This document shows positions 7,453 through 59,328 of a stretch of DNA of 64,000 bases, piece after piece. Numbering within the stretch: position 1 is the first letter of the stretch; every line of letters begins with the position of its first letter. The notes beneath the pieces were generated by a model. That model ran no database searches and had not been told where the DNA came from. It saw only the letters and a list, made by a program, of their open reading frames with translations. The position numbers and the translations under genes are program-made. The stretch lies in the NCBI RefSeq assembly GCF_014174405.1, contig NZ_JACEGA010000001.1, positions 742,001-806,000 on the forward strand, in the 5' to 3' direction. The DNA comes from Variimorphobacter saccharofermentans. GTDB lineage: Bacteria > Bacillota > Clostridia > Lachnospirales > Lachnospiraceae.

Positions 7453-7634
7453 TGTAACATAATAAATATGCAGGGATTAATACTTACCATAATGCACTGT
7501 CAGAAGAACAACGTTGTTGAATTCTGTATGGATAGGACAAACTTTTATGTTTGTCTTAGACATACAGAATTTACAACTTGTACTTCTGTCTGTGTGTGAG
7601 GTAAGTTTAATCCCTGCTGATACATTATGTTACA
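7453..7634 (+). repeat. Family A hairpin element, copy 1
   Basis: This is a 182-bp long hairpin. Outer arms TGTAACATAAT (7453-7463) and ATTATGTTACA (7624-7634) continue through GCAGGGATTAA and TTAATCCCTGC to ACTTACC and GGTAAGT. The conserved asymmetric motif is ATAATGCACTGTC opposite GTCTGTGTGTGA. An inner stem (about 7510-7580) closes on TTTTAT. It lies between two convergent genes and may also terminate both. Confidence 0.85.
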
Positions 7635-7648
7635 GCCCCATAATTGCA

Positions 7649-7939
7649 TTATTCGATTGGCTCGTAGCGGTTGAAGATTTTGCTGGCACTACATACATGC
7701 TTGGTGCCATCAGAGTCTATAATAATATAGTCATTTTCTCCAATGAAGGTTCTTCCACGACTGTGGGTGATATAGGGACAATAGGTATTACCATCGGGTT
7801 GCTTTACCTTAAGTAAATGATCAGTAACTATCCAGCCCTTGGTTATTACATCGGACCATAGCTCGTAGCCATCCTCATATCCTTTATTAAATTCAAACTT
7901 ATAAACATCGGCTTCTAGACCTACTCTTCTACATCTCAT
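7649..7939 (-). CDS. Small protein of unknown function
   Basis: This minus-strand gene encodes 96 residues. It starts MRCRRVGLEADVYKF and has aromatic and acidic stretches such as GYEDGYELW and ENDYIIIDSDG. The composition suggests a compact beta-rich soluble fold, perhaps of the small PGDYG-like type, but I cannot assign it. An AAAGGGG ribosome site lies about seven bases before the ATG, which supports it as real. It is convergent with the ArsC-like gene, with hairpin element A1 between the two stops, and divergent from the GH16 gene. Confidence 0.72.
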   Translation of the reverse strand: MRCRRVGLEADVYKFEFNKGYEDGYELWSDVITKGWIVTDHLLKVKQPDGNTYCPYITHSRGRTFIGENDYIIIDSDGTKHVCSASKIFNRYEPIE

Positions 7940-8048
7940 AGAATCGCCCCTTTCAGTATTAATTATGTCTGTTACCCTCCTGATTACATTATAGCATAGA
8001 TATGGAAAATTGTAATCATAACATCCAAAAGTTTCTAATATGCAACTT

Positions 8049-8077
8049 TTGACATTATAATTGTCGGATTACATAAA
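8049..8077 (+). promoter_or_regulatory. Possible promoter for the GH16 gene
   Basis: TTGACA (8049-8054) is perfect. At 17 bases' distance is CATAAA (8072-8077), a four-of-six match to the -10. It sits in the divergent gap about 120 bases before the GH16 start. Confidence 0.4.
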
Positions 8078-8194
8078 AATAATAATTTCTATAATTATAA
8101 AAAACAGAAACTCTGGATGAAAAATGGAGACTTGTTGCAGTAACGGGTGGATGTTAAAATGGAGCAGTGCATTACAAGATGGGGGGAAAATGAA

Positions 8195-9145
8195 ATGAAA
8201 AGGGTTAAGCTAATAGTTCTATGTCTAATGATTGGTTGTTTAGGTACAGCATGTATTTCAAAAACAGAAGAGGTAGAAAGCTCACTTACAGCCTCAAGTA
8301 ATATGGTGTCTGAACAAGATAGAACACCTCAAGCGAAAACAGAGGATAAAAAAATAACAGATGAGAAAGTAGTAGATGAGACAGCTGCTGATCAGGAAAT
8401 AGCAGAAGAAAAAGTAGAAGATAAAGTAGAAGAAAAAGCAGAAGATAAGTCTATAGAAGCGGCTTCTGATGTGGACGTGAAAAGCAAAACCGAGGAGCAG
8501 TATAATATAGTGTTCCATCTGGACATGGATAATCATGATGCAGAGCGCATGCAGAAAGCGGACGGTTGGTCCAATGGGTCCATATTTGACTGTACCTGGC
8601 GTGCAGATAATATCACTTTTAATGATGGAATTATGACCTTAAGAATTGATACAGATGGTGAAAATACCTCTCCCAGGTGGTCGGGAGGAGAATATCGAAC
8701 CAATCAATTTTATCACTATGGAAAATATGAAGTAAGAATGAAGCCAATACGTAATGATGGAGTGGTGTCCTCCTTCTTTGTATACACAGGCCCCAGTGAT
8801 AATAATCCTTGGGATGAAATTGATATAGAGTTCGTGGGAAAAGACACGACGAAGGTGCAGTTTAATTATTTCACTAACGGAGTGGGTGGTCATGAGTTTA
8901 TCTATGATCTGGGTTTTGACGCCAGCGAGGAATTCCATGAGTATGGCTTTGAGTGGCAAGAGAATTCGATAACCTGGTATGTGGATGGGGTAGCGGTACA
9001 TACGGCTGATAAGGATATACCATCGACACCGGGAAAGATTATGATGAATGTGTGGCCGGGAATCGGTGTGGACCAATGGTTGAAACCCTTTGACGGGAAG
9101 GTTCCGCTGGAAGCACAGTATGACTGGATCCAATTTTCGGACTAG
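8195..9145 (+). CDS. GH16 family beta-glucanase lipoprotein (lichenase/laminarinase type)
   Basis: This 316-residue extracellular lipoprotein probably cleaves beta-1,3- or mixed-linkage beta-glucans. It has a type II signal peptide with lipobox LGTAC, then a highly charged Glu/Lys/Asp linker (about residues 45-95) that likely spaces the enzyme from the membrane. The catalytic GH16 domain contains the ExDxxE signature as DEIDIEF, giving E208 as nucleophile and E212 as acid/base. WYVDGVAVH and MNVWPG are further family motifs. The ATG at 8195 is preferred to an upstream GTG because GGGGGG lies eight bases before it and it starts the signal peptide. The sugar transporter downstream fits import of the products. 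Confidence 0.92.
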   Translation: MKRVKLIVLCLMIGCLGTACISKTEEVESSLTASSNMVSEQDRTPQAKTEDKKITDEKVVDETAADQEIAEEKVEDKVEEKAEDKSIEAASDVDVKSKTEEQYNIVFHLDMDNHDAERMQKADGWSNGSIFDCTWRADNITFNDGIMTLRIDTDGENTSPRWSGGEYRTNQFYHYGKYEVRMKPIRNDGVVSSFFVYTGPSDNNPWDEIDIEFVGKDTTKVQFNYFTNGVGGHEFIYDLGFDASEEFHEYGFEWQENSITWYVDGVAVHTADKDIPSTPGKIMMNVWPGIGVDQWLKPFDGKVPLEAQYDWIQFSD

Positions 9146-9205
9146 ACAATTTCGTCTCTATACATGTGATAACCTTAGATTATTCTTAAATAATAAGAGT
9201 TATAG

Positions 9206-9395
9206 GGGCTGTTGCATAATACATTTACAGGGAATATGACTTACCATAATGCACTGTCGGAAGAACAGATTGCTGATTTTATATGGATAAGGCGAACTTT
9301 TTTGTCCGCCTGAGACATATAAAATCAGCAATGTGTTACTTCCGTCTGTGTGTGAGGTAAGTCATATTCTCTGCACGTATATTATGCAACAGCCC
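9206..9395 (+). repeat. Family A hairpin element, copy 2
   Basis: This is a 190-bp hairpin with exact terminal arms GGGCTGTTGCATAAT (9206-9220) and ATTATGCAACAGCCC (9381-9395). The conserved ACTTACC-ATAATGCACTGTC-GGAAG motif lies opposite CTTCC-GTCTGTGTGTGA-GGTAAGT, and the inner stem closes on TTTTTT. A T run directly after the 3' arm means it could terminate transcription from the GH16 gene. Confidence 0.88.
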
Positions 9396-9466
9396 TTTTT
9401 TATAGTATAAGATAAAAAAATCACACCAATACATAAATCTGGACACCGCTAAAAGCCGGATTATCT

Positions 9467-9475
9467 TGATATAAT
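9467..9475 (+). promoter_or_regulatory. Extended -10 promoter before the parvulin gene
   Basis: TGATATAAT is a consensus -10 (TATAAT, 9470-9475) with the TGn extension. No good -35 lies 17 bases upstream. It is placed about 70 bases before the GTG start. Confidence 0.45.
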
Positions 9476-9543
9476 GGTATCAAAAGTGAAACGAATCGAT
9501 ATTGAGAAAGAGTATAATGAGAGCACAATTTGGAGGAGTAAAT

Positions 9544-10530
9544 GTGAAAAAGAATGGACATTTCATCAGCATAGGGCTGGTTCTAATAATTATGGCGCTC
9601 AGCCTTCTGGCTACAGGCTGCAGCACAGCGGTTAAAGCGAAATCTGAGACCTTGGTGTTAACAGTGGATGATACCAAGGTATATTTGAATGAAATGATGT
9701 ATCACGTGATGCTTGCGGAAATACAGGGAGAATTATATGCTTCCGTTCTTCAGAATGGGGAAGAGTATTGGGACATGGATGATGGAAATGGAGCTACCAT
9801 GGCGGAGGTTGCAAAGGATATGGCCATGGATAATGCAGTAAAATACCAGCTGTTCTATGACCTGGCAATGCAAGAGGGATATGAATTGACGGATGAGGAG
9901 AAGGCAATCTGTAAATCCCAGGCGGAAAACATCATGTTAAATATTCCGTCAGAGGTACTTCAGAGGCTGGAGTTATCGGAAGAGCAGCTTATTATCATTC
10001 TGAATAAGATTGCAATAGCGACCAGATATTATAATGATTTTGTGAAGGCATTGAACGTGGATGAAGCAGCGATTAAGGAAACCATTGATGCCGCGGATTA
10101 TCAGCAATACGATATGGAATACGTCTACGCTACAAAGGAGGAGCTTGCAGAGCTTGAAGAACTGAAAGAGGAGATAACGAATGCAACGGATTTTAATCAG
10201 CTATCGGATAAGACCAGTCTGAAAATCGGTGCATTATCCTTTATATCCGGTAAGGATACCTTTGGAGAGGAGACGAATCTGGAAGAAGAAATAGTGAACC
10301 TGAACCCTGGAGAGGTAAGCGATATTATTGAGACAGTGAAAGGGTATTATGTTATTAAGCTAAAGGATAACATCTCAAAGGATAGCTATGAGGCAGCAGT
10401 ATCCGATGCAGTGGAACGGGCACAGAATGAAGCCTTTGAATTGGCATATGAAAAACTTAAAAAAGAACATCAAATTACAATAAATAAAAAGATATGGGAA
10501 AAGGTAAAGGTAGGAGAAAATCTCAAATAA
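9544..10530 (+). CDS. PrsA-like peptidyl-prolyl isomerase lipoprotein (parvulin/PPIC)
   Basis: This 328-residue lipoprotein probably helps fold secreted proteins. It has a signal peptide with lipobox LLATGC, a SurA/PrsA-like helical N-region with the typical opening TLVLTVDDTKVYLNEM, and a C-terminal parvulin-like domain (about 190-285) with LKIGALSFISG, LNPGEVSDIIETVKGYYVIKL. The domain is short and may be weakly active or chaperone only. The start is GTG at 9544, chosen because GGAGGAG lies just upstream and it begins the signal peptide, although two in-frame starts lie farther up. It sits between a secreted glucanase and a sugar transporter. Confidence 0.83.
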   Translation: MKKNGHFISIGLVLIIMALSLLATGCSTAVKAKSETLVLTVDDTKVYLNEMMYHVMLAEIQGELYASVLQNGEEYWDMDDGNGATMAEVAKDMAMDNAVKYQLFYDLAMQEGYELTDEEKAICKSQAENIMLNIPSEVLQRLELSEEQLIIILNKIAIATRYYNDFVKALNVDEAAIKETIDAADYQQYDMEYVYATKEELAELEELKEEITNATDFNQLSDKTSLKIGALSFISGKDTFGEETNLEEEIVNLNPGEVSDIIETVKGYYVIKLKDNISKDSYEAAVSDAVERAQNEAFELAYEKLKKEHQITINKKIWEKVKVGENLK

Positions 10531-10620
10531 AAAAATGATACCTAATACAAAATTAAGACATTATATTCAATAAAGATATTCTGTATGATAAGGGTATGAA
10601 ATAAGGACGGAGGAAATGAA

Positions 10621-11583
10621 ATGGCTAAGGCTGCAGCTAAGACAAGTAACCTTCAGCCCCGTGTGAAGCTGGGAGCGAAAAGGACAATACATAAATGGTG
10701 GAATCAAAAATATCTACAATTCATGGTGCTGCCCGGTATTCTGTGGATGCTGATTTTTAACTACATACCTATGGGCGGAATTGTGATTGCATTTAAAAAG
10801 TTCAAGATTACAAAGCCGATTATGGATGCCCCATGGGTTGGGTTTAAATATTTCATAGATTTTTTTGAGGATTCAAACTTTGCAGATATTATGGTAAATA
10901 CAGTGGGTATCAGCTTACTGAAGCTGTTTATCGGATTTCCGCTACCTATTATATTTGCATTGCTGGTAAATGAAATTCGCGGTCAAAAGTTTAAAAGAAT
11001 TTCTCAGACCATATCATATCTGCCACACTTTCTTTCGTGGGTTGTGTTGGGAGGTATCTTAACTACCTGGCTGGCAAAGGATGGAGTGATTAATGATTTG
11101 CTGGTAGCTATTAAGGTGATTAAGGAACCGATTTCCTTCCTGGGTGAGCCTAAATATTTCTGGGGAATTTCATTGATTACGGACAGCTGGAAGGAGCTTG
11201 GGTGGTCCGCGATTATTTATCTGGCATCCATCGCCAGTATAGATCAGGAAATGTATGAGGCAGCTACGGTGGATGGGGCGTCAAAGATACAGAAGATATT
11301 ATATATTACAGTGCCCTCCATCACCGGAACCATAGCGATTATGCTGATTTTACAGGTGTCCTCCCTGTTAAACTCTAATTTTGACCAGATTATGATATTG
11401 AAGAACCAAATTAACGTTTCCAGAAGTCAGGTTATAGATACCTATGTATATCAGGTTGGTATGATGAACGGGAAATACTCCTATGCGACTGCAGTTGGTC
11501 TTTTTAAATCCATAATAGCGCTAATCTTGCTTCTTATCTCTAATAAGACCTGTAAGAAGCTGCTTGGAAGATCATTGTACTAG
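10621..11583 (+). CDS. lplB: Sugar ABC transporter permease, LplB family
   Basis: This 320-residue inner-membrane permease is one half of the channel of a carbohydrate ABC importer (CUT1-type, LplB/YtcP subfamily). It has about six transmembrane segments and the EAA loop as EMYEAATVDGASKIQKI, which docks the ATPase. FMVLPGILWMLIFNYIPMGG is the characteristic opening helix. A GGAGG site precedes the ATG. It is the first gene of a permease, permease, binding-protein operon. No ATPase gene lies nearby; such systems commonly share an MsmK-type ATPase encoded elsewhere. Confidence 0.92.
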   Translation: MAKAAAKTSNLQPRVKLGAKRTIHKWWNQKYLQFMVLPGILWMLIFNYIPMGGIVIAFKKFKITKPIMDAPWVGFKYFIDFFEDSNFADIMVNTVGISLLKLFIGFPLPIIFALLVNEIRGQKFKRISQTISYLPHFLSWVVLGGILTTWLAKDGVINDLLVAIKVIKEPISFLGEPKYFWGISLITDSWKELGWSAIIYLASIASIDQEMYEAATVDGASKIQKILYITVPSITGTIAIMLILQVSSLLNSNFDQIMILKNQINVSRSQVIDTYVYQVGMMNGKYSYATAVGLFKSIIALILLLISNKTCKKLLGRSLY

Positions 11584-11596
11584 AAAGGAGTATGGT

Positions 11597-12508
11597 ATGA
11601 GTAAGACAGGTAAAACAACAATAAAGCGTTCAAAGGGAACCATTGTATTTGATACGGTCAATATGATTATCATGATTACTTTCTGCTTTTTATGTTTATA
11701 TCCTATCTGGTATGTAATCGTGAACTCCTTTAATGATGCAAAGGATGCGATGATGGGGGGAATTTACTGGTGGCCGAGAGTATTCTCCTTAGAGAATTAT
11801 AGAACCGTCTTTGAAGACAGCAGTGTATTGCAATCGTTCAAGGTCACCATTGGGAAGACGTTATTAGGAACCGTAACCAATGTCTTCTTTACAGCAATGG
11901 TTGCATATCCGCTATCCAAAAAAGATTTAGTAGGAAGAAAGTGGTACATGGCTATCGGTACAGTGACCATGTTCTTCTCAGGAGGCTTGATACCGACCTT
12001 TATTCTATTCAAAAAAATGAATTTATTGAATAATTTCCTGGTATATATCATTCCTGCAGCATTTAACTTTTTTAACCTGTTAATATTTATTAACTTTTTC
12101 CGGGAAATACCTTCGGCTTTGGAGGAGGCAGCTAAAATTGACGGCGCCAACGATTTGAAGATATTCTTAAGAATTATAATTCCGTTATCCAAGCCGGTAC
12201 TCGCCACAATTGCATTGTTCTGCGGTGTAGGACAATGGAATGATTATTTCGGCGGTTTGATGTTCATGACAACCCGGGTGGATCTGGAACCGATTCAGAC
12301 TTATCTGTATAGAATGGTTGCTCAGGCCCAGTCGAGTCAGATGGCAAATATTTCATCAGCCGCTTCCAATATATCAACTCCGGAGACAACCTCTACGGCG
12401 ATAAAGTTAGCTACAATGGTAATAACAACTCTGCCTATATGCTGTGTTTATCCATTCCTGCAGAAGTATTTCGTAAAAGGAATGATGGTAGGCGCAGTTA
12501 AGGAATAA
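11597..12508 (+). CDS. Sugar ABC transporter permease, LplC/YtcP family
   Basis: This 303-residue protein is the second transmembrane subunit of the importer. It has about six helices and the EAA motif ALEEAAKIDGANDLKIF. The C-terminal PFLQKYFVKGMMVGAVKE is typical of the family. The ATG at 11597 is chosen because AAAGGAG ends seven bases upstream; an in-frame TTG at 11564 would overlap the previous gene. It is separated from lplB by 13 bases and from the binding protein by 32 bases, so one transcript is likely. Confidence 0.92.
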   Translation: MSKTGKTTIKRSKGTIVFDTVNMIIMITFCFLCLYPIWYVIVNSFNDAKDAMMGGIYWWPRVFSLENYRTVFEDSSVLQSFKVTIGKTLLGTVTNVFFTAMVAYPLSKKDLVGRKWYMAIGTVTMFFSGGLIPTFILFKKMNLLNNFLVYIIPAAFNFFNLLIFINFFREIPSALEEAAKIDGANDLKIFLRIIIPLSKPVLATIALFCGVGQWNDYFGGLMFMTTRVDLEPIQTYLYRMVAQAQSSQMANISSAASNISTPETTSTAIKLATMVITTLPICCVYPFLQKYFVKGMMVGAVKE

Positions 12509-12540
12509 ATGAAACTACATAGTTAAGAGGAGGAAAAATA

Positions 12541-14247: not shown

Positions 14248-14262
14248 ACTAGATTAATACCC

Positions 14263-14349
14263 GAGAAAAGGGGTTGTTGCATAATGAAGAAGCAGGGATT
14301 ATGGCAAGCCATAATCCCTATAGCTTCATTTTGCAGCATCCTCTTTTTC
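14263..14349 (+). repeat. Core-less family A hairpin (copy 3, miniature)
   Basis: This 87-bp hairpin carries the outer arm of family A (GTTGTTGCATAAT, then GCAGGGATTATGGC) folding directly back through AA onto GCCATAATCCC and TTTTGCAGCATCC. The conserved core of about 110 bp found in the other copies is absent. It ends in CTCTTTTTCT and probably terminates the transporter operon. Confidence 0.78.
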
Positions 14350-14384
14350 TGGATTTTACGTTATAGTAATAATGAATCCATTTA

Positions 14385-14393
14385 TGTTATAAT
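14385..14393 (+). promoter_or_regulatory. Extended -10 promoter before the sensor kinase
   Basis: TGTTATAAT is a TATAAT box (14388-14393) with a TGn extension about 85 bases before the kinase ATG. The -35 is poor. Confidence 0.4.
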
Positions 14394-14476
14394 CAATAGG
14401 ATACGAGAAAGCTTGAACGCTTTATAATTTCGTGCAAACACTACCTTAAAACCAGGGCGACTTATATGGAGGCGGA

Positions 14477-17772: not shown

Positions 17773-17812
17773 TGACATGGTGTCACCATCTTGTTCTTAT
17801 AGCTTGATTTAC

Positions 17813-18030
17813 GGTTCAGCCTTGAACGATATCCGATGAAATCGAAGTGGGGGACTATGACTTACCATAATGCACTGTCGGGAGAACTTGTTGCTGGTTT
17901 TGTATGTCTCAGACGAATATTTATTGTTCGTATGAGACATACAAAATCAGTAACATGTCCTCCCGTCTGTGTGTGAGGTAAGCCATAGTCCCCCACTTCG
18001 ATTTCATCGGATACCATTCAAATATGAACC
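17813..18030 (+). repeat. Family A hairpin element, copy 4, with unrelated outer arms
   Basis: This is a 218-bp hairpin. The conserved core (CTTACC-ATAATGCACTGTC opposite GTCTGTGTGTGA-GGTAAG) and the inner stem (TTTTGTATGTCTCA opposite TGAGACATACAAAA) are those of family A. The outer arms are different from the other copies: a perfect 29-bp inverted repeat at 17831-17859 and 17984-18012, extended by GGTTCA (17813-17818) and TGAACC (18025-18030). Confidence 0.88.
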
Positions 18031-18253
18031 GAAATCACCAAATTTTCCAAATAAGAAAAAATTTCTCGAAATTCGCTTGATAATATGTTATAATCGCCTT
18101 ATCCATGAACTAACGCAATGGATATTTTGCTTGTATCATCGAATCATAGTCATTTCATATCGCACCATAGAACTGTATGAAGAATGGCTGCTTAAGATCG
18201 GTTATTGCATGGCTATGATACCAAGCATTTATATCGGGATTAGGAGGCAAGAC

Positions 18254-24343: not shown

Positions 24344-24394
24344 GGAAAAGAGTTAACGAAAAAGAGTTAACGAAAAAGAGTTAACGGAAAAGAG
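24344..24394 (+). repeat. Tandem 14-bp repeat
   Basis: About 3.5 copies of a 14-base unit, G(G/A)AAAAGAGTTAAC. The last partial unit GGAAAAGAG forms the outermost arm of the family B hairpin. Confidence 0.85.
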
Positions 24395-24595
24395 AGGTCC
24401 CCATATGGAGTGTGGGCAGTACCGTAAAACAAGCTCTATTTTCGGGAATTTCTGCATGCGTCTATTACGTTTCGCTCCTCCTTGATAGGAACGTCAGTCG
24501 CTCGCGAAACGAACTAGCATACAGAAATCCGCTCGAAAATAGGCTAATCGTTTTACGGTATCTGCCCACACTCCATATGGGGACCACTCTTTTCC
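24386..24595 (+). repeat. Family B long-hairpin element, copy 1
   Basis: This is a 210-bp inverted-repeat element. Arms run GGAAAAGAG-A-GGTCCCCATATGGAG inward and are matched by CTCCATATGGGGACC-A-CTCTTTTCC, with further pairing of CCGTAAAA and TTTTACGG. The centre is GC-richer (CGTTTCGC and GCGAAACG pairs). A 71-codon open frame inside is a product of the repeat: it has no ribosome site and its counterpart appears in copy 2 at 44.6 kb. Together with the tandem repeat it fills the 634-base gap before the next gene. Confidence 0.85.
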
Positions 24596-44597: not shown

Positions 44598-44813
44598 GGA
44601 TAAGAGGGCCCATACATTGGGGGGGGTGTAGGCAGATACCGGAAAATGATTAGCCTATTTTCGAGTGAGTAACTGCATGCTAGTTCGTTTCGCGAGCGAC
44701 CGACGCAACTATCAGGGAGGAGCGAAACGTAATAGACGCATGCAGGAACTCCCGAAAATAGTGCTTGTTTTCCGGTACTGCCTACACCCTCCAATGTATG
44801 GGCTCTCTTATCC
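44598..44813 (-). repeat. Family B long-hairpin element, copy 2 (inverted)
   Basis: This 216-bp element matches copy 1 read on the other strand. Outer arms GGATAAGAG (44598-44606) and CTCTTATCC (44805-44813) correspond to GGAAAAGAG and CTCTTTTCC in copy 1. Inner arms GTGTAGGCAG/CTGCCTACAC and CCGGAAAA/TTTTCCGG also change together with copy 1. The 82-codon frame within it is homologous to that in copy 1 but lacks a ribosome site. Confidence 0.85.
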
Positions 44814-49369: not shown

Positions 49370-49597
49370 ATGACTTTAAAAAATGGAGTAATAGGGTCCA
49401 GCTACACTGTTTCTTCCCTGGACCTTGATCTTGTTACTATGAGAAGATTGGAAGCCCTGGGATTAACAAAGGGAACAAAAGTAAGAATATTAAATCGTAA
49501 TCGCGTTGGCTCTGTCATATTAATGGTAAGAGGAAGCAGATTGGCCTTGGGAAGCAAAATCGCAGGAGCAATATTAACGAAGGAGGCATCGGCATGA
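49370..49597 (+). CDS. feoA: Ferrous iron transport protein FeoA
   Basis: This 75-residue SH3-like protein supports FeoB. MRRLEALGLTKGTKVRILNRN and VRGSRLALGSKIAGAI are family motifs. ATG 49370 is chosen because AGAGG ends nine bases upstream; ATG 49361 would abut the ribosome site. Its stop overlaps the FeoB start by four bases, giving translational coupling. It is controlled by the Fur-box promoter upstream. Confidence 0.95.
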   Translation: MTLKNGVIGSSYTVSSLDLDLVTMRRLEALGLTKGTKVRILNRNRVGSVILMVRGSRLALGSKIAGAILTKEASA

Positions 49598-51648
49598 GAG
49601 AAGAGCTACAGGTAGGATTTGTCGGTAATCCGAATTGCGGGAAGACTACACTTTTCAATGCATATACTGGTGCAAATTTAAAGGTGGCAAACTGGCCCGG
49701 AGTTACGGTTGAGAAAAAGGAAGGGGCCTTTAAATATCATGACCATAAGTTCAAGCTTGTAGACTTGCCCGGAATTTACAGCCTGACCTCCTATACCATG
49801 GAAGAAAGACTAACCAGAGAGTATATCCTGGATTCTAATGTGGATGTTATTGTCAATGTAGTGGATGCCTCCAGTTTAGAGCGTAATCTATATCTGACAC
49901 TGCAGTTAATTGAGCTGGGAAAGCCGATTATACTGGCGTTGAATATGATGGATATTGTAGAAGAGAGAGGAATGGAGATCGATCTTCACAGACTTCCGGA
50001 GATGCTAGGAGTGCCGGTTATTCCGGTATCGGCGCGAAAGAAGACTGGACTGGATATCCTTATGCATACGGTATCCCATCATAAGGATAAAGGCTTTGAT
50101 CATAATCTTGAGCATCATCATGCCAATCTTTCCATTAAGGAGATCCGTCATAAGCATCAGCATCATAATGAATATCCGGTAGTATATAGTGATGAAATAG
50201 AAGATAAAATTGATGAAGTAAGTGAACTGTTACATAGCAAATACGGAAATGTCAATAATCTGAGATGGCATGCGATTAAAATTTTGGAGCTGGATCAGGG
50301 TATCCTGGAAAAATACCCTCTCAAGCTAACCGGTGTTGTCGATCATAGTTATGAAAGTGAAATCATTAATCAAAAGTATGATTTTATTGAGGAAATCATC
50401 GAAGAGGTTCTTGTGAACAAGAGTAAGAAGTCGGAAGCAACGGATCGTATTGATGGTATATTAACTCATCGATACCTTGGACTTCCTATATTCCTTGGAA
50501 TCATGGCACTCATTTTTCTCCTGACATTTCAGATCGGTGATTTCTTAAAGGGAGGATTTGAGGTTGCACTGGATGCGTTCTCGGTAACAACCTTGAATTT
50601 CCTGGTTAAAATAAATGCAAGCGACTTTGTTACCTCTCTTATTGTTGATGGAATTATTGCGGGAGTTGGAGGAATATTGACCTTCCTTCCCAATATATTT
50701 ATTCTCTTCCTGGCTCTTGCATACTTAGAGGATAGCGGATATATGGCGAGAGTGGCATATGTTATGGATGGGATAATGGGTAAACTGGGATTGTCCGGAA
50801 GGGCGTTTATCCCTATGTTGTTAGGATTTGGATGTACCGTTCCTGCAATTATGGCCTCAAGATCTCTTGAAAATATGCAGGATCGCCGTAAAACAATACT
50901 GGTAACGCCATTCATGTCCTGTAGTGCCAGATTACCCATATATGTCCTGTTTTCAGAAATGTTTTTTGAGGACATGGCGGTGGTAGCAGCATTTTCCATG
51001 TATTTAATCGGGATCGTAGTTGCTATTATCGTTGCATATGTTATGAAGGATAGGAAGGAGCTTAATGCAGGGAACACGCTGTTAATTGAGCTTCCTGAAT
51101 ATAAATCTCCCAATGTAAGAACGATATTAATCTATGCGTGGGAGAAGGTGAAGGAGTACTTAACTAAGGCCGGAACTACGATTTTCGCAGCTTCAGTAGT
51201 AATCTGGTTTGTTCTGAACTTTGGACCATCAGGCATGGTAAGCGATATGTCCCAAAGCTTTGGAGCCATCATTGGAAAGGCTATCGCTCCGGTACTGGCA
51301 CCCGCCGGTCTTGGCCTATGGCAGATTGTAGTGGCATTAATATCCGGAGTGGCTGCCAAGGAGGTAGTAGTATCCAGCTTCAGTGTATTGTTTGAAATTA
51401 ATAATATTACCTCTCCTGACGGTATGACAAGCCTTATGGGAATATTAGGCCAGTATGGTTTTGGAGCTTTAAATGCTTATTCGTTAATGGTATTCAGCTT
51501 ACTGTATATACCATGCGTTGCCACAATCGGAGTAATACAGAGGGAAATGAGATCCATTAAATGGACTGTGTTCACCGTTGTGTTCCAGCTCGGTGTGGCA
51601 CTGCTGATGTCGACACTGATTTATCAGATTGGAAGTCTGTTTCTATAA
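49594..51648 (+). CDS. feoB: Ferrous iron transporter FeoB
   Basis: This 684-residue iron(II) importer has an N-terminal GTPase domain: G1 GNPNCGKTT, G3 DLPG, G4 NMMD. A helical guanine-dissociation region and about eight to ten membrane helices follow, with gating motifs such as LLGFGCTVPAIMASR. Between the G domain and the membrane part (about residues 165-195) lies a histidine-rich stretch with HHKDKGFDH, EHHHANL and RHKHQHH. That stretch could bind metal and is richer than usual in the family. Regulation is by the Fur box before feoA. Confidence 0.96.
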   Translation: MREELQVGFVGNPNCGKTTLFNAYTGANLKVANWPGVTVEKKEGAFKYHDHKFKLVDLPGIYSLTSYTMEERLTREYILDSNVDVIVNVVDASSLERNLYLTLQLIELGKPIILALNMMDIVEERGMEIDLHRLPEMLGVPVIPVSARKKTGLDILMHTVSHHKDKGFDHNLEHHHANLSIKEIRHKHQHHNEYPVVYSDEIEDKIDEVSELLHSKYGNVNNLRWHAIKILELDQGILEKYPLKLTGVVDHSYESEIINQKYDFIEEIIEEVLVNKSKKSEATDRIDGILTHRYLGLPIFLGIMALIFLLTFQIGDFLKGGFEVALDAFSVTTLNFLVKINASDFVTSLIVDGIIAGVGGILTFLPNIFILFLALAYLEDSGYMARVAYVMDGIMGKLGLSGRAFIPMLLGFGCTVPAIMASRSLENMQDRRKTILVTPFMSCSARLPIYVLFSEMFFEDMAVVAAFSMYLIGIVVAIIVAYVMKDRKELNAGNTLLIELPEYKSPNVRTILIYAWEKVKEYLTKAGTTIFAASVVIWFVLNFGPSGMVSDMSQSFGAIIGKAIAPVLAPAGLGLWQIVVALISGVAAKEVVVSSFSVLFEINNITSPDGMTSLMGILGQYGFGALNAYSLMVFSLLYIPCVATIGVIQREMRSIKWTVFTVVFQLGVALLMSTLIYQIGSLFL

Positions 51649-51757
51649 GAGATGTGCTTCGATCAAAGCGTTCCTATCTAACATATAATAAATAGGAAAT
51701 TATCATTTCTTAAGTGATAGGTGCATGTATTGGAAAGGATGAAAGGAGGAAATAAGA

Positions 51758-51925: not shown

Positions 51926-51933
51926 ATGGATCA

Positions 51934-52121
51934 GGGCTGTTGTATTTTGTATAAGCAGGGATTATAACTTTCCTCAAGTACTGACAGAAGTACAGTTTGT
52001 TAATTCGGTATGTCTCAAACGAACATTAAGTTCGTTCTGTTCATACAGAATTCAACAACATTATTTCTGACAGTGCATTATGGAAAGCGATAATCCCTAC
52101 ATTTATATAGTGCGGCAGCCC
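51934..52121 (-). repeat. Family A hairpin element, copy 5 (inverted, most diverged)
   Basis: This 188-bp hairpin lies in the 396-base gap before dgt. Arms GGGCTG/CAGCCC and GCAGGGATTAT/ATAATCCC are shared with other copies. The conserved motif is on the minus strand (GACAGTGCATTAT on +). The pair next to it is CTTTCC/GGAAAG here instead of CTTACC/GGTAAG, a compensatory change. The opposite strand of the motif is diverged. Confidence 0.8.
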
Positions 52122-52321: not shown

Positions 52322-53344
52322 ATGGAGTTTGGTATGAATATCAGACAGAAACTGGAGCAGAGAGAACATGAGATATTGAGTCCCTTTGCAGCGTTTTCAG
52401 ATCAATCACAGGGTTGTGAGATATATGAAGAACCGTGTGACATTCGACCAATTTATCAGAGAGACAGGGATAAGATATTACATTCGAAGGCATTTCGCAG
52501 GCTGAAGCATAAAACACAGGTATTTCTTGCTCCAGAGGGTGATCATTATCGTACAAGACTCACTCATACTCTGGAGGTGTCGCAGATAGCTCGAACGATT
52601 GCAAAAGCATTGCTGCTGAATGAAGACCTGACAGAAGCGATTGCTTTGGGACATGATCTGGGCCATACGCCATTTGGACATGCCGGGGAACGAGCATTAA
52701 ACCGTATCTGTCCTGGCGGATTCGAGCACCATTTGCAGAGTATCCGCGTGGTCGAGGTGATTGAGAAGCATGGAAAGGGGCTTAACCTCTCCAGGGAGGT
52801 ACGGGATGGGATACTAAATCACAAGTCAGCAGGAAATCCTTCCACGCTTGAAGGAAAGATTGTACGTATTTGTGACAAAATTGCTTACATTAATCATGAT
52901 ATTGATGATGCGATTCGCGGGCAGATTATGAGAGAAGAGGATATCCCAAGAGAATTTACCGATGTGTTGGGTCATAGCCTGGGAGAGCGTTTGGATACAT
53001 TGGTACATGATATCATTACGAATAGTGAGAACCACAATGATATCATCATGTCACCTAAGATTAAGGATGCAATGCAAAAGCTTAGAGAGTATATGTTCAA
53101 AAGCGTATATATGAATAAAAAGGCGAAAAGCCAAGAGGAGCAGGCAGAACGACTTCTGGAACAGCTCTTTGTATATTATCAGGAGCATTTGGAGCTTTTA
53201 CCGAAAGAATATTTAAATCGCATGGAACAACGACAGGAGCCCTCCTATCGTGCAGTCTGCGATTATATTGCCGGTATGACGGATACCTATGCCGTATCAA
53301 AATTCAAGGAATTGATGATACCATCCTCCTGGAGTGTATATTAA
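52322..53344 (+). CDS. dgt: dGTP triphosphohydrolase-like HD protein
   Basis: This 340-residue HD-domain enzyme hydrolyses dNTPs to nucleoside and triphosphate. Metal ligands appear in RTRLTHTLEVSQIARTIA, GHDLGHTPFGHAGE and, later, ICDKIAYINHDIDDA. YQRDRDKILHSKAFRRLKHKTQVF is typical of the short dGTPase-like branch. GGAGG lies five bases before the ATG at 52322. It precedes dnaG and rpoD, the common order in Clostridia, linking nucleotide pools to replication priming. Confidence 0.94.
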   Translation: MEFGMNIRQKLEQREHEILSPFAAFSDQSQGCEIYEEPCDIRPIYQRDRDKILHSKAFRRLKHKTQVFLAPEGDHYRTRLTHTLEVSQIARTIAKALLLNEDLTEAIALGHDLGHTPFGHAGERALNRICPGGFEHHLQSIRVVEVIEKHGKGLNLSREVRDGILNHKSAGNPSTLEGKIVRICDKIAYINHDIDDAIRGQIMREEDIPREFTDVLGHSLGERLDTLVHDIITNSENHNDIIMSPKIKDAMQKLREYMFKSVYMNKKAKSQEEQAERLLEQLFVYYQEHLELLPKEYLNRMEQRQEPSYRAVCDYIAGMTDTYAVSKFKELMIPSSWSVY

Positions 53345-53389
53345 TATAGTTTTACAGAAGAGGGCGAGTTTACATGGAAGGAGTATACA

Positions 53390-55171
53390 ATGTTTTATTC
53401 GGACGAGCTAGTGGAAGAAATCAGAAGTAAGAATGATATTGTAAGTGTAATTGGCTCCTACATAAGATTGCAGAAAAAGGGCAGTAATCATATGGGGTTA
53501 TGTCCCTTTCATAATGAGAAGACTCCCTCCTTTTCCGTTAGTCCGACCAAACAGATGTATCATTGCTTCGGATGTGGAGTCGGAGGCAATGTATTTACCT
53601 TTATTATGGAGTATGAAAACTTTACCTTTGTCGAAGCGTTAAAGTTCTTAGCAGAACGTGCCGGAGTAGCCCTGCCGGAGAGGGAATACTCAGAGGAAGC
53701 TAAGAGGCAGTCAGATATGAGAGCCAGGCTTCTTGAGGTGAATAAGCAGGCAGCGAAGTATTTTTATTACCAGCTGATATCTCCCAGAGGACAGGCAGCC
53801 CATGATTATTTGGTTCAGCGAGGATTAACAGAGGAGACGATCAAGCAATTTGGATTGGGCTATTCCAACAAATATAGTGATGATTTATATAAATACTTAA
53901 AAGGCCAGGGTTATGAGGATGAGTTTCTTAAGACGTCAGGTCTGGTAACCATTGACGAGAGAAAAGGAGCAACGGACAAGTTCTGGAATCGGGTAATGTT
54001 TCCGATTATGGATGCTAATCACCGGGTGATCGGCTTCGGTGGCCGTGTGATGGGCGATGGAATGCCAAAGTATGTGAATTCTCCGGAGACGTTGATATTT
54101 GATAAAAGCCGAAACCTTTATGGTTTGAATTTCGCAAGAGCCTCCCGTAAACAGTATTTATTGATTTGTGAAGGCTATATGGATGTCATAGCACTGCATC
54201 AGGCAGGCTTTACCAATGCAGTTGCCGCTTTGGGAACAGCATTTACAATATTTCATGCAAACTTATTAAAACGTTATACCAATGAAGTGCTATTAACCTT
54301 TGATAGTGATTCTGCAGGAACGCAGGCTGCACTTCGGGCAATACCAATTCTGAAGGAAGCCGGACTAACGGTGAAGGTGATTAATATGAAGCCTTACAAG
54401 GATCCGGATGAATTCATTAAGGCTCTGGGAGCAGAGGAATATGCTAAGAGAATTGCAGAGGCGAGAAACAGCTTTTTCTTTGAAATCGATGTACTACAAT
54501 CGGAGTATGATATGGCAGATCCGGAGCAGAAGACAAAGTTCTTCCACGAAACGGCTAAGAAGCTGCTAGGTTTTACAGAGGAGCTCGAACGGAACTTCTA
54601 TCTGGATGCCGTGGCTAAGAATTATCAGATTGATGTGGAACAGCTTCGTAAGGTGGTTAATAAGCTGGGTTCTCAGATCGTTGTCGGACTTGGTGAGCCA
54701 AGAGAATATCATACGGATGCTAATAGAGGTAAGAAGACGACGGAGGATGGAATTTCAAAGTCGCAGAAATTACTGCTGACCTGGTTGATAGAGGATAATA
54801 CCTTGTTCGATAAGGTGGCAGAGATTATTGGTCCGGAGGATTTTACCGAGGGTATCTATCATGAAGTAGCGGTCCAGGTATTTGATCAATATGAGAAGGA
54901 GAAGACGGTTAACCCTGCAAAGATTATTAACTGCTTTCAAAGCAAGGAGGAACAATCTGAAGCAGCTGCCCTGTTTTCTGCCGGTATACGAGGAGAAATG
55001 GATGATGCCGGATGGCAGAAGGCCTTATCAGATACCATTATGCGTATTAAGGAGAATAGTCTGGATATGAAGAGCCAGAAGGCGATAGAAGCTAATGATA
55101 CTGAGCTGCTTATGCGAATTATTGCAGAAAAGACACAATTAAAAAAGCATAAATTTTCATTTCACAATTAA
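53390..55171 (+). CDS. dnaG: DNA primase DnaG
   Basis: This 593-residue primase makes RNA primers at the replication fork. The zinc-binding domain has CPFHNEKTPSF and CFGCGVGG. The RNA polymerase core has the DnaG motif RVIGFGGRVMGD, and the TOPRIM acidic residues lie in LLICEGYMDVIAL and LTFDSDSAGTQAA. The C-terminal part should bind the DnaB helicase. GGAAGGAG precedes the ATG. Confidence 0.97.
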   Translation: MFYSDELVEEIRSKNDIVSVIGSYIRLQKKGSNHMGLCPFHNEKTPSFSVSPTKQMYHCFGCGVGGNVFTFIMEYENFTFVEALKFLAERAGVALPEREYSEEAKRQSDMRARLLEVNKQAAKYFYYQLISPRGQAAHDYLVQRGLTEETIKQFGLGYSNKYSDDLYKYLKGQGYEDEFLKTSGLVTIDERKGATDKFWNRVMFPIMDANHRVIGFGGRVMGDGMPKYVNSPETLIFDKSRNLYGLNFARASRKQYLLICEGYMDVIALHQAGFTNAVAALGTAFTIFHANLLKRYTNEVLLTFDSDSAGTQAALRAIPILKEAGLTVKVINMKPYKDPDEFIKALGAEEYAKRIAEARNSFFFEIDVLQSEYDMADPEQKTKFFHETAKKLLGFTEELERNFYLDAVAKNYQIDVEQLRKVVNKLGSQIVVGLGEPREYHTDANRGKKTTEDGISKSQKLLLTWLIEDNTLFDKVAEIIGPEDFTEGIYHEVAVQVFDQYEKEKTVNPAKIINCFQSKEEQSEAAALFSAGIRGEMDDAGWQKALSDTIMRIKENSLDMKSQKAIEANDTELLMRIIAEKTQLKKHKFSFHN

Positions 55172-55284
55172 CCAGTACCAGTGTTCTGCTGAACACGGCG
55201 AATAGGCAGGGACCTAGTAGAAACTGCATATTTCATCAAATGATGGTTAAAATATAAAAAGAGTTTAAGAAGGAAGGATTATCT

Positions 55285-56379
55285 ATGGACGAAAATATAG
55301 TAAAGTTTACGGAAAGACTGAAGGAGTTATTGGCTTTTGCCGAGAAGAAGAAAAATGTGCTTGAATTTCAGGAGGTAAATGATTTTTTCGCAGATATGGA
55401 GCTGGATGCTCAACGTATAGAAAAAATCTACGATTTCCTGGACAAGCATAATGTAGACGTTCTTCGTATTTCCGAAGAAGATGAGGAAGATATTATTCTG
55501 GATGATGACGAAGAGATGGAGCCCATAGATCTATCAGTTCCGGAGGGTATTAATATTGATGATCCGGTCCGTATGTATCTGAAGGAGATTGGTAAGGTTC
55601 CCCTTCTGAATGCGGACGAGGAAATTGAGCTGGCAAGAAAGATGGAAGACGGTGATGACTATGCGAAGAAACGTCTTGCAGAAGCAAACCTGCGTCTGGT
55701 TGTCAGCATAGCTAAGCGTTATGTTGGACGAGGCATGTTGTTCTTGGATTTGATTCAGGAAGGTAACCTTGGTTTGATTAAGGCCGTGGAGAAGTTTGAT
55801 TATCGCAAGGGTTATAAATTCAGTACTTATGCAACCTGGTGGATCAGACAAGCAATTACCAGAGCAATTGCGGATCAGGCGAGAACCATCCGTATTCCGG
55901 TTCATATGGTCGAGACAATTAATAAATTAACCCGTGTTCAAAGACAATTATTACAGGAGTTAGGCAGAGAACCATCTCCAGAGGAGATTTCCGAGGTTAT
56001 GAATATGTCCGTTGACCGTGTCAGAGAAATTCAAAAGATATCTCAGGAACCGGTATCCCTGGAAACACCCATTGGTGAAGAGGAAGACAGCCACTTAGGC
56101 GATTTTATACAGGATGACAATGTTCCGGTTCCGGCAGATGCCGCTGCATTTACCTTACTGAAGGAGCAGCTGGTGGAAGTACTTGGAACTCTGACCGAAC
56201 GAGAGCAAAAGGTACTTCGTCTTCGTTTCGGTCTGGATGATGGCAGGGCACGTACATTGGAAGAGGTAGGTAAGGAATTCAATGTTACGAGAGAACGTAT
56301 CCGTCAGATCGAAGCTAAGGCATTGCGTAAGCTAAGACATCCCAGCCGTAGCAGAAAGCTGAGGGATTATCTGGAGTAA
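55285..56379 (+). CDS. rpoD: RNA polymerase primary sigma factor RpoD/SigA
   Basis: This 364-residue sigma-70 directs housekeeping transcription. Region 1.1-like acidic sequence opens it ([15 protein letters not shown]). Region 1.2 is [16 protein letters not shown]; region 2 has [39 protein letters not shown] (core binding and -10 recognition), here cited in part. Region 3 follows, and region 4 has [29 protein letters not shown] (-35 recognition). It belongs to the dgt-dnaG-rpoD cluster. A terminator follows. Confidence 0.98.
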
Positions 56380-56412
56380 TTCACCTGGGTAAGTAATAAG
56401 AATTATAAAAAG

Positions 56413-56463
56413 AAGGACAGGGTTCCGTTACTAAGATAGTCGGGAGCAAGTCCTTTCTTTTTT
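56413..56463 (+). terminator. Terminator after rpoD
   Basis: AAGGAC (56413-56418) pairs with GTCCTT (56450-56455) around a large loop. TTCTTTTTT follows. Confidence 0.65.
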
Positions 56464-56620
56464 GAATGGATTATGGAATTATTATTCTGCTGATAAGCCT
56501 GCACATAGCATTAATTTATTATGGAAAATATTACATACCTATGTTAACATATTAATACGGTGTTTCGTTTAGAATGTCATTATATGATAGAATTTTATAA
56601 GTGCTATAGTTGTAGAAGTT

Positions 56621-56629
56621 TGATATAAT
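56621..56629 (+). promoter_or_regulatory. Extended -10 promoter before trmK
   Basis: TGATATAAT, a TATAAT box (56624-56629) with the TGn extension, 67 bases before the trmK ATG. The -35 is not clear. Confidence 0.5.
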
Positions 56630-56695
56630 AAAGAATTTTATCACGCTATAAAGATTTGTTTTACTATAAATTTGATTAAGAAAAGGACTCACAAT

Positions 56696-57412
56696 ATGCA
56701 ACTTTCAGATCGTTTGCTGGCAGTTACAAAGCTCGTTACACCGGGAAACCGCGTAGCGGATGTGGGATGTGACCATGCCTATACCTCCATTTTTCTGGTG
56801 GAACAGGGAATATCACCCTACGTAATTGCCATGGATGTGAATCAGGGACCCATTGACAGAGCGAGGGAAAATATCATTCGATATGGACAAAAGGCTTATA
56901 TCGATGTTCGTAAATCCAATGGTCTGGAAAAGCTGGAGCCAGGAGAAGCAGATACCGTTCTCATTGCAGGAATGGGCGGAAGACTGACCCTGCAGATTCT
57001 GTCGGATTATCCGAAGGTAACAGCAAGTATTCGGGAATTGGTACTACAGCCACAGTCAGAAATTCATCTGGTTCGCAGGACACTACAGGATATGGGATTT
57101 CTCATCGTGAAGGAAAATATGCTTAAAGAAGACGGTAAATATTATGTTATGATGAGGGCGGTGCCAAAGGTTCTGATCGAAGATGAATGCCCCTATGTAC
57201 TTACAGAAGATGAACATTATTATTATGGCCGTCAGCTATTGGAGCAGAGAAATTCTGTATTGGTCGAGTATTTAGAATGGGAGAAGGAGCTTTCAGAGAA
57301 CATAGTATCAACACTTTCCAAAGAAACAACGGAGAATGCGGATCAACGAAAACAAGAAATAAAGGATAAGCTGGATCTGATTAAGAAAGGACTTGGGTAT
57401 TATAGGTATTAG
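56696..57412 (+). CDS. trmK: tRNA (adenine(22)-N1)-methyltransferase TrmK
   Basis: This 238-residue SAM-dependent enzyme methylates A22 of tRNA. The SAM-binding motif is RVADVGCDHAYTSIFL, followed by AMDVNQGPIDRAREN and IAGMGGRL. VLQPQSEIHLVRR is typical of the COG2384 family. ATG 56696 is chosen because AAAGGA precedes it and the family usually opens LSDRLLAVTKLV; TTG 56672 would add eight residues. Its place after rpoD is a known Firmicute synteny. Confidence 0.92.
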   Translation: MQLSDRLLAVTKLVTPGNRVADVGCDHAYTSIFLVEQGISPYVIAMDVNQGPIDRARENIIRYGQKAYIDVRKSNGLEKLEPGEADTVLIAGMGGRLTLQILSDYPKVTASIRELVLQPQSEIHLVRRTLQDMGFLIVKENMLKEDGKYYVMMRAVPKVLIEDECPYVLTEDEHYYYGRQLLEQRNSVLVEYLEWEKELSENIVSTLSKETTENADQRKQEIKDKLDLIKKGLGYYRY

Positions 57413-57457
57413 TTTTGCAATTACCTATACCATGATAAAAAATGAAAGGAAATGCGT

Positions 57458-59122
57458 ATGAATACAAATATGAAGGTTGAGATTAATGGTTCTGTGTATG
57501 AATATCCGAAGAACATATCCCTGCTTGAGATTAGTAAGGATTTTCAGAAGGATTATAGCGATCAGATTATTCTTGCTTTTGTGAATAATAAGCTTAGGGA
57601 ATTATTTAAATATGTAAGTAAAGATTGTAAGATCAGTTTTGTCACCATAGGAGATGATGCCGGACATAAAACCTATGTACGAGGAATCATATTGGTTATG
57701 TTAAAAGCTTTCTATGCAGAATTTGGCTCTGTGAACATAGAAAAGGTATCTGTTGAATATACCATCGGAAATGGACTATTTTGTGATTATGTAGGAAAGG
57801 TTCCCTTAACAAAGGAGCGCATCCAGGCAGTCAAGAATAGAATGAAGGAATTGATTGAACGGGATATTCCTTTTGTTAAAAGGAGTGTCGGAACGGATGA
57901 TGCCATCGAGCTATTCCGTCAATACGGGATGTACGATAAGGAAAAGCTGTTCCGTTACCGTCGAGTATCCAAAGCGAATATATATAGTCTGGATGGATTT
58001 GAGGATTATTACTATGGATATATGCCACCTAGCTCCGGCATGCTGAAATACTTTGATCTTATGCAATATGATGATGGGTTTATGTTAATTCTACCCAACA
58101 AGAAAACGCCTACAGTGGTGGACAAGTTTGTGCCACAGGTTAAGCTGTATGAAACACTTAAGGAAGCAAACCAATGGGTTAAAATGATGGATATACCCAA
58201 TGTGGGAGCTTTAAACGATGCCAATGCCAGTGGGAAGATGAATGAGTTGATCTTGGTACAGGAGGCACTTCAGGAGAAGAAGATCAGTGATATAGCGGAA
58301 ACCATAAAAAAGGCTGGTGGCAAGAAATTTATCATGATAGCCGGTCCCTCCTCCTCTGGTAAGACCACTTTTTCCTATCGGCTGAGTATCCAGTTAAAAG
58401 CACATGGGTTGAAGCCCCATCCGATTGCAGTGGATAATTACTTTGTGGATCGGGAAAATACTCCCAAGGATGAGAAGGGTAATTATAATTTTGAAAGTCT
58501 CCAAGCGATTGATCTTGAGCAGTTCAATAAGGATATGACGGATTTATTAAATGGAAAAACAGTAGAGATTCCTTATTTCAACTTTGTATCAGGTAAAAGA
58601 GAGTATAAAGGGAACTTCCTAAAGCTAGGACCGGAGGATATTCTGGTAATTGAAGGAATTCACGGATTAAATGATGCCCTTTCCTATTCCCTGCCAAGGG
58701 AAAGTAAGTTTAAGATATATATCAGTGCCTTGACCTCACTGAATATTGACGAGCATAATAGAATATCAACTACGGATGGGCGACTCATACGCCGTATGGT
58801 ACGAGATGCACGAACCAGAGGCGCTTCAGCGCAAGCAACCATCCGGATGTGGCCATCTGTACGAAGGGGAGAGGAGGAGAATATCTTCCCATTCCAGGAG
58901 GATGCCGATGTTATGTTCAACTCCGCATTAATCTATGAACTCGCTGTATTAAAGCAATATGCAGAACCGATCTTGTTTGGTATTGACCGGAATTGTGAAG
59001 AGTACGTGGAAGCAAAGAGACTACTCAAATTCCTAGACTACTTTATCGGTGCACCAAGCGAAGCGGTTCCGAAGAACTCCATATTGAAGGAATTTGTTGG
59101 CGGAAGCTGCTTCAAAGTATGA
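57458..59122 (+). CDS. Uridine kinase-like nucleoside kinase with TGS/threonyl-tRNA-editing-like N-terminus
   Basis: This 554-residue protein combines an N-terminal ubiquitin-like TGS fold (KVEINGSVYEYPKNISLLEI), a middle domain resembling the ThrRS second additional domain, and a C-terminal uridine-kinase-like P-loop domain. The last has Walker A IAGPSSSGKTTF, HPIAVDNYFVDRENTP and VIEGIHGLND. Such proteins are common in Clostridia and are annotated as nucleoside kinases; the function of the N-terminal part is not known. ATG 57458 fits AAAGGA seven bases upstream better than ATG 57452. Hairpin A6 follows and could terminate it. Confidence 0.88.
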   Translation: MNTNMKVEINGSVYEYPKNISLLEISKDFQKDYSDQIILAFVNNKLRELFKYVSKDCKISFVTIGDDAGHKTYVRGIILVMLKAFYAEFGSVNIEKVSVEYTIGNGLFCDYVGKVPLTKERIQAVKNRMKELIERDIPFVKRSVGTDDAIELFRQYGMYDKEKLFRYRRVSKANIYSLDGFEDYYYGYMPPSSGMLKYFDLMQYDDGFMLILPNKKTPTVVDKFVPQVKLYETLKEANQWVKMMDIPNVGALNDANASGKMNELILVQEALQEKKISDIAETIKKAGGKKFIMIAGPSSSGKTTFSYRLSIQLKAHGLKPHPIAVDNYFVDRENTPKDEKGNYNFESLQAIDLEQFNKDMTDLLNGKTVEIPYFNFVSGKREYKGNFLKLGPEDILVIEGIHGLNDALSYSLPRESKFKIYISALTSLNIDEHNRISTTDGRLIRRMVRDARTRGASAQATIRMWPSVRRGEEENIFPFQEDADVMFNSALIYELAVLKQYAEPILFGIDRNCEEYVEAKRLLKFLDYFIGAPSEAVPKNSILKEFVGGSCFKV

Positions 59123-59141
59123 GATTGGAATAAAAAGAAGA

Positions 59142-59328
59142 GGCTGTTGCAAAAATTTATCAGCAGGGCATATAACTTACCTCACACACAGACGGAAGTA
59201 CATATTACTGATTTTGTATGTCTCATGCGAATATAAATACTCGCATGAGACATACAAAACACAGCAATAAGTTCTTCCGACAGTGCATTATGGTAAGTTA
59301 TATGCCCTGCATATTTTATGCAACAGCC
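59142..59328 (-). repeat. Family A hairpin element, copy 6 (inverted)
   Basis: This 187-bp hairpin has terminal arms GGCTGTTGCA (59142-59151) and TGCAACAGCC (59319-59328). ACTTACC and GGTAAGT flank the conserved motif, here as CTCACACACAGAC on the left and GACAGTGCATTAT on the right, so it points opposite to copies 1, 2 and 4. The inner stem is GTATGTCTCATGCGA with TCGCATGAGACATAC. A T-rich stretch follows. Confidence 0.88.

Follow-up and report, generated by a model that had tools for sequence, protein, structure and literature searches.

A dispersed hairpin element at gene ends in one Lachnospiraceae genus carries a conserved core and a strand-specific excess of G-U pairs

Small interspersed hairpins are common, the Correia elements (CE), also called NEMIS, among them, and to our knowledge it is usually left open whether the folded strand of such repeats is selected. 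The closest described systems fall into two kinds, small folded repeats and hairpin-targeting insertion sequences (IS). In the sections of PMC3049150 drawn on here, the pneumococcal BOX, RUP and SPRITE are small repeats that fold strongly and are enriched between convergent genes, SPRITE being terminator-like, and the mobilisation of miniature inverted-repeat transposable elements (MITEs) by resident IS via shared ends is discussed; the same sections describe neisserial CE as hairpins that, when transcribed, are RNase III targets, and ERIC as acting through a transcribed hairpin in an orientation-dependent manner (PMC3049150). IS1272, of the IS1182 family, replaces stem-loops without target duplication according to the cited part of PMC5678879, and targets terminators according to that of PMC4923244. 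The element considered here, family A, was found in a 64,000-nt stretch of the Variimorphobacter saccharofermentans genome (the window; G000:C1:742001-806000, in a genome of 4.16 Mb and 4 contigs). About 100 copies in this genome, together with copies in 24 related genomes, permit a direct test of strand selection. The new observation is an excess of G-U pairs on one strand in the parts other than the core, fed by mutations of both directions and not following local transcription or replication orientation. With moderate confidence, the family is read as a MITE-like, non-autonomous hairpin of ~190 bp which invades terminator sites and bears a motif that is read as a single strand, probably as RNA. 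If this holds, part of a genus's gene ends would be mobile parts sharing one core, and transposon targeting, transcription termination and RNA-protein recognition would come together in a single, readily testable system.

Copy 2 (9200-9400) folds as RNA into one long hairpin of -115.6 kcal/mol (z = -20.7; 0/200 shuffles as good), and the median element length is 192 bp (87 copies with both ends placed). From its outer end inwards, the hairpin consists of an arm reading GGGGCTGTTGCATAAT or a variant of it, a mid-stem that closes with GACTTACC, the core ATAATRCACTGTC, the inner stem and the apical loop; the mirror half includes GTCTGTGTGTGAGG. Across 73 copies the mean pairwise difference is lowest in the two halves of the core (0.051 and 0.030), rises to 0.238 over the first part of the inner stem and 0.315 over the outer 16 bases, and is highest in the mid-stem (0.368). 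The first-pass annotation, made from the window alone, had regarded this core as conserved and unpaired; the conservation is evident, but most of the internal motif proves to be base-paired, if with mismatches. The R of the core ATAATRCAC faces U (G-U 37 and A-U 22 in 59 copies; 49 and 14 in 65 sequences), and therefore both the G and the A state pair. A coreless form also exists, the middle of which reads about GGGATTATGGTAAGYCATAATCCC; it fits a deletion between ATTATG direct repeats, one in the mid-stem and one in the core. Six such copies were read (the window copy, L161, L162, L166, L168 and L172), and a pattern search lists further candidate places distant from known full copies. The core-to-core length (5' to 3' core end) is 120-124 in most own copies, others clustering at 142/143 and some reaching as much as 180, and the apical stem of own copies seems to lengthen by palindromic units such as GCGAATATTTATATTCGC.

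The early observation that stem sequences vary yet stay paired extends to the genus, since double changes affect 43 of 50 pairs in an alignment of 65 sequences (57 of 81 relative copies and eight own). In the same alignment 91.0% of the cells are paired, compared with 73.0% when shuffled and 30.7-49.1% when slid, the slid control favouring the structure because the latter was derived from the same alignment. A test by wobble type is independent of that derivation: a hairpin kept only as DNA, or by copying between arms, should hold G-T and A-C mismatches in equal numbers. The inner stem of 59 own copies instead contains 117 G-U and 19 A-C (columns 20 vs 2, 6 ties), and their mid-stem 41 and 19. 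With the core excluded, G-U pairs number 227 on the + strand of the element and 83 on the - strand in 91 of 99 own copies (3' core edits at most 3, length at least 90; copies 65 vs 7, 19 ties). The corresponding numbers for the 64 relative copies used, out of 81 (at most 4 mismatches, at least 5/10 stem matches; copies 49 vs 2, 13 ties), are 143 and 25. The outer stem of the relatives leans the same way (127 and 65). The + strand excess is seen in 17 of 18 relative genomes, several of them with few pairs, while G011 leans opposite (1 and 2). Both wobble directions contribute, the GC-majority and AU-majority columns giving 13:2 and 17:3 over the genus and 14:3 and 16:4 in the own genome. The excess is alike in both replication orientations (91/36 and 136/47) and present in both tandem gene orientations. 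Copy counts are not independent events, since copies share descent. A strand-specific excess fed by both mutation directions means that the + strand appears to be under structural constraint, selected to fold. Strand asymmetry alone does not separate RNA from single-stranded DNA, and we consider folding as RNA the likelier of the two. The initial proposal of a protein-binding or RNA motif thus gains, in its RNA part, a wobble asymmetry between strands that arm-to-arm conversion does not predict.

The abundance of the family is far beyond chance. The 19-base core pattern (at most 3 mismatches) occurs at 100 genome places (59 forward, 41 reverse) compared with 1 for the reversed control, so that the window copies have ample further company in the genome, and the 3' partner motif lies within 5 edits at 99 of these places and within 3 at 94. 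With copy 2 as query, blastn gave at least 78 matches over both strands among the best 40 of 155 candidates scored, and near-identical copies (97% and 96% identity) lie at unrelated genome places. A covariance model, R1, was built from 55 of 99 own copies (alignment A3; A2 used 59 of 99, both after filtering by length and redundancy), and recovers most core-pattern places plus a few extra (best 150 of 2116 candidates, both strands counted). A search of related genomes with R1 placed the kin in the same genus: the element was found in at least 25 of 145 genomes (E ≤ 0.01), namely the own genome and 24 of the 33 further genomes of the genus, as against 0 of 111 from elsewhere, at most 22 candidates being scored per genome, so that misses are possible. 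Among the genomes searched, the element is thus seen in one Lachnospiraceae genus only. The nearest records by DnaG include a Herbinix sp. metagenome-assembled genome (MAG; 83%), a Bacillota MAG (80%) and Mobilitalea sibirica (78%), a comparison from which the own genome may be omitted. Between species the stem sequences are exchanged for others, whereas TAATGCAC, GTGTGTGAGG and an apical CG(A/G)AC..GTnCGA..RCATACA motif are mostly retained (readable in 81 of 83 relative loci, two lacking a readable core; the core was placed automatically, and a few loci such as L264, L287 and L312 look misplaced). The family is not a catalogued Rfam family: at the gathering threshold RNase P was the sole match in the whole window, and at permissive thresholds the element hits among six loci were miRNA-like, below gathering, and look like generic hairpin matches. 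Phages and plasmids (blastn, copy 2) and viral contigs (one exact pattern) gave no match, and among the open-licence PMC papers listed by the literature searches no title or abstract opening dealt with this element. At L099:957-1332 (G000:C1:2850835-2851136) two very similar family A elements stand in direct tandem, core starts 164 bp apart, which suggests local duplication.

The element sits predominantly near the 3' ends of genes. Based on open reading frames (ORFs) and approximate element borders, 40 of 99 copies lie between convergent genes, 24 and 31 in the two tandem arrangements and 4 between divergent genes; of the 198 gene ends next to a copy, 135 are 3' ends, and the median distance is 20 bp to 3' ends and 142 bp to 5' ends. 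Among 23 relative copies with long flanks, 13 are convergent, 8 tandem and 1 divergent, and 1 further copy has one side unread. The copies had been called intergenic throughout, and no long gene is broken in the window, but genome-wide ORFs of at least 60 aa, which are candidate genes, span 4 of 99 copies. Element-free orthologous sites, found in relatives of other species, were compared at two sites. Of 28 genomes at site X, R1 detects a full element in three (own, G009, G031), and visual inspection adds remnants in G016 and G010; of 22 genomes at site Y, two (own, G012) have a full element and G008 a remnant. Where neither element nor remnant is present, a terminator-like compact hairpin with a T-rich tail occupies site X in 19 of 23 genomes (shuffle expectation 2.0) and site Y in 12 of 19 (shuffle expectation 1.2), counts that exclude the elements themselves, remnants and long-range stems. 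By eye, these hairpins differ in sequence between species. At the site Y gene end of L367 and L385 (G009 and G020), a third long-hairpin sequence around GAAGTACGTAATGGTACATAAG / CTAAGTACCAACGACTTC was seen by eye in two species, in the slot held elsewhere by family A. In the dnaG region, R1 yielded nothing convincing in 80 loci (a stray match in L189, E 0.34), many of which are too short for both sites; neighbouring genes were located in 11 loci, and reading of eight loci for the site of copy 5 and of six for that of copy 4 showed no element, other hairpins standing at the latter in L183, L187 and L192. By skew-based bins, 39 of 100 elements are on the leading strand. The GC skew of sampled C1 stretches switches sign near 2.0 Mb, so that contig C1 seems to start near the origin, and element orientation on C1 is 35 forward and 15 reverse in the second half, 24 and 26 in the first.

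The reading as a MITE, put forward at the outset with an unseen enzyme, is supported by the near-identical dispersed copies, the element-free sites in relatives and inverted ends resembling those of the IS1182 family. Three resident IS1182-family copies end in GGGGCTGTCGC; their left end GGGGCTGTCGCA matches the element end GGGGCTGTTGCA at 11 of 12 bases and the right end at 10 of 12, the element subfamily GGGGATGTTTCA fitting less well. Mobilisation is therefore probably due to an IS1182-type enzyme, as judged from these ends. For 87 of 99 copies both ends could be assigned to one of three end types with no more than 6 mismatches, and among these copies target-site duplications of at least 4 bases occur in 2, both of exactly 4 bases (null mean 0.78), i.e. 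none are evident. Flank complementarity is 5.72/10 compared with 5.01 (sd, standard deviation, 0.11) when shuffled; the evidence for hairpins as targets consists of these complementary flanks and of the hairpins at orthologous sites, all in other species.

From these sequences we infer a mobilising enzyme, a terminator activity and a reader and function for the core. An IS1182-type transposase would recognise the GGGGCTGTnGCA ends and move the element by replacing terminator stem-loops, which we hold to be reasonably likely, and the inserted hairpin would then, with comparable likelihood, act as transcript end for the neighbouring genes. The + strand RNA would bear the conserved TAATGCAC/GTGTGTGA motif, read by a putative host or element-linked protein, and such reading would preserve the core while the stems drift with compensation. 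Recombination between inverted arms and between copies would flip or swap the inner module within a retained outer hairpin.

Several results weigh against this scheme. Only 3 of 34 genus genomes have an IS1182-family transposase above the curated cut-off (11 of 34 have one with E ≤ 0.001), and its presence does not track the element, which is found in at least 25 of 34; G015 has IS1182 and no element hit, and the IS1182-family copy of G008 appears to have other ends. The coreless copies are dispersed as well, which makes the core dispensable for spreading unless every one of them lost it in place. At site Y, 7 of the 19 element-free genomes lack a compact hairpin. The outer stem of the own genome shows no + strand bias (G-U 28 vs A-C 43 in 59 copies; 147 and 122 by strand). 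Near copy 2 there is one promoter-like match, fewer than the shuffle mean of 1.6, and a terminator scan, which is blind to a loop this large, gave no match. Core orientation is unbiased with respect to local transcription (24 same, 31 opposite) and core decay is equal in both transcription orientations (0.96 and 0.93 mismatches), and therefore no cis-acting transcript function is visible. Such a function was rejected, as neither orientation nor wobble type relative to the neighbouring gene direction gave a signal.

A more radical version, which we regard as tentative, is a mobile structured RNA (or single strand) colonising terminators, in which a GGGG..CCCC-bounded inner module would insert into or replace the tips of pre-existing gene-end hairpins, be held by strand-specific selection on TAATGCAC/GTGTGTGA bound by a putative protein, and flip or swap inside outer hairpins that are retained; the other long-hairpin families of the genus would be parallel versions with other cores.

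Conversion could instead have made the family what it is. The first-pass annotation cautioned that conversion between arms might keep them complementary, and the corresponding explanation, which we consider unlikely, is a passive MITE family in which gene conversion, among copies as well as from arm to arm, maintains the likeness, and in which the core would be a functionless tract converted more than the rest. Part of the turnover agrees with it. Two own copies, c2147965 and c2498212, carry arms of different subfamilies; among 16 aligned syntenic pairs, c34892/L289 has alignable outer arms and a flipped core, L300/L316 has the same outer hairpin with an inner module of another subfamily, and in L136/L143 the inner part is nearly unchanged and the mid-stem altered on both sides. 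Over 22 cross-genome DNA pairs sharing a flank, the core orientation is the same in 11 and inverted in 11 (6 and 6 for the 12 pairs matching on both flanks, the other 10 matching on one only), although these pairs are partly non-independent, some falling within the same genome trio and one involving L264, which looks misplaced. In most of the remaining aligned pairs common descent of the arms is not clearly visible, and these may have arisen by independent insertion at a favoured site. Because modules are swapped or flipped and arms are of mixed subfamilies, recombination between arms and copies is likely, and it likely explains part of the sequence sameness while giving no strand bias. Conversion predicts neither one-strand G-U pairs well above A-C in 17 of 18 genomes and from both mutation directions, nor a conserved core beside mid-stems that change freely across species. 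The caution was thus partly justified, as regards part of the sequence sameness, and does not reach the wobble asymmetry.

About as improbable, in our estimate, is a constraint acting on single-stranded DNA, in which a recombinase or transposase specific for one strand would use the + strand hairpin in the way that IS200/IS605 ends or integron attC sites are used. Strand-specific enzymes choose their strand via a folded single strand with defined bulges, and the strand bias does belong to the element, independently of local transcription. However, the own genome has one Y1 transposase match, strong and full-length, which we take to be IS200-like, and G002, G005 and G018, with weaker and longer Y1 proteins that by score and length are presumably RAYT-like (REP-associated tyrosine transposases; REP, repetitive extragenic palindromic), have no element hits. 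A DDE transposase would agree with the inverted ends and the hairpin sites, and G-T pairs stabilise DNA hairpins less than G-U pairs stabilise RNA.

A mutational origin of the asymmetry, e.g. cytosine deamination on one strand in place of selection, is very improbable: mutational biases between leading and lagging strands do exist, but this explanation was rejected because the excess is similar in both replication orientations and stems from A-to-G as well as C-to-U. Least probable of all are REP palindromes or bacterial interspersed mosaic elements (BIMEs) spread by a RAYT protein, a system rejected in spite of the dispersed palindromes near gene ends and the Y1 proteins, possibly RAYTs, of some genus members, given that the own genome, although incomplete, holds about 100 copies and a single Y1 match of the putatively IS200-like kind and that REPs differ from this 192 bp element in length and ends.

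Within the window, all five full copies and the one coreless copy reported at first were recovered (Table 1). The divergence then ascribed to the core of copy 5 was a misreading which falls away because copies 4 and 5 are inverted relative to copies 1-3; the core of copy 5 is intact. Copy 4 has a small ORF following the gene at 49594-51648 on one side and an HD-domain gene (52322-53344) on the other, and copy 5 is flanked by a uridine-kinase-like gene and the RNase P RNA gene (class A). The window also holds a second long-hairpin family with a different core, family B, in two copies of opposite orientation; a DNA query with it found about 10 places in the own genome.

Table 1. Positions of family A elements and adjoining features in the window
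Feature	Position	Strand	Remarks
Family A copy 1	7448..7639	+	core on + strand; R1 match 7475-7612 +, 135.3 bits
Family A copy 2	9205..9395	+	genome-search query and reference fold; R1 match 9232-9369 +, 152.8 bits
Copy 2 5' core CTTACCATAATGCACTGTC	9240..9258	+	100 genome places at ≤3 mismatches, control 1
Copy 2 3' core GTCTGTGTGTGAGGTAAG	9344..9361	+	≤5 edits in 99/100 copies, ≤3 edits in 94
Coreless short hairpin	14263..14349	.	fits deletion between ATTATG direct repeats of full element
Family A copy 3	17809..18034	+	outer stem unrelated, outer limits from inverted repeat; R1 match 17853-17990 +, 142.9 bits
Family B copy	24386-24595		opposite in orientation to the other family B copy
Family B copy	44598-44813		opposite in orientation to the other family B copy
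Family A copy 4	51934..52121	-	inverted, 3' core degraded; R1 match 51960-52095 -, 103.1 bits
Family A copy 5	59141..59328	-	inverted, core intact; R1 match 59168-59305 -, 157.5 bits
RNase P RNA (class A)	59524-59905	-	adjoins copy 5

Compared with known systems, family A is placed beside interspersed hairpin elements, BOX and RUP for instance, as a variant that belongs to none of them. With IS1182/IS1272 it has in common the end GGGGCTGTnGC, shared with the resident IS1182-family copies, and, as for IS1272, the lack of target duplication and, probably, sites that are hairpins or terminators, as far as the cited parts of PMC5678879 and PMC4923244 describe them. It differs in having no transposase gene, in being ~190 bp long, the whole element forming one hairpin with a conserved core, and in that IS1182 passes the cut-off in few of the genus members that carry the element. 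Like BOX, RUP and SPRITE it is a small, interspersed, strongly folded repeat enriched between convergent genes, but a strand-specific wobble bias and a genus-wide core do not figure in the descriptions of these repeats in the cited sections, by which they are set apart, and about 61-63% of them lie on the leading strand compared with 39 of 100 here (PMC3049150). CE and ERIC are likewise small mobile repeats, acting through transcribed hairpins; they are distinguished, again by the descriptions in the sections cited, by the terminator-slot position and the genus-wide core that mark family A (PMC3049150).

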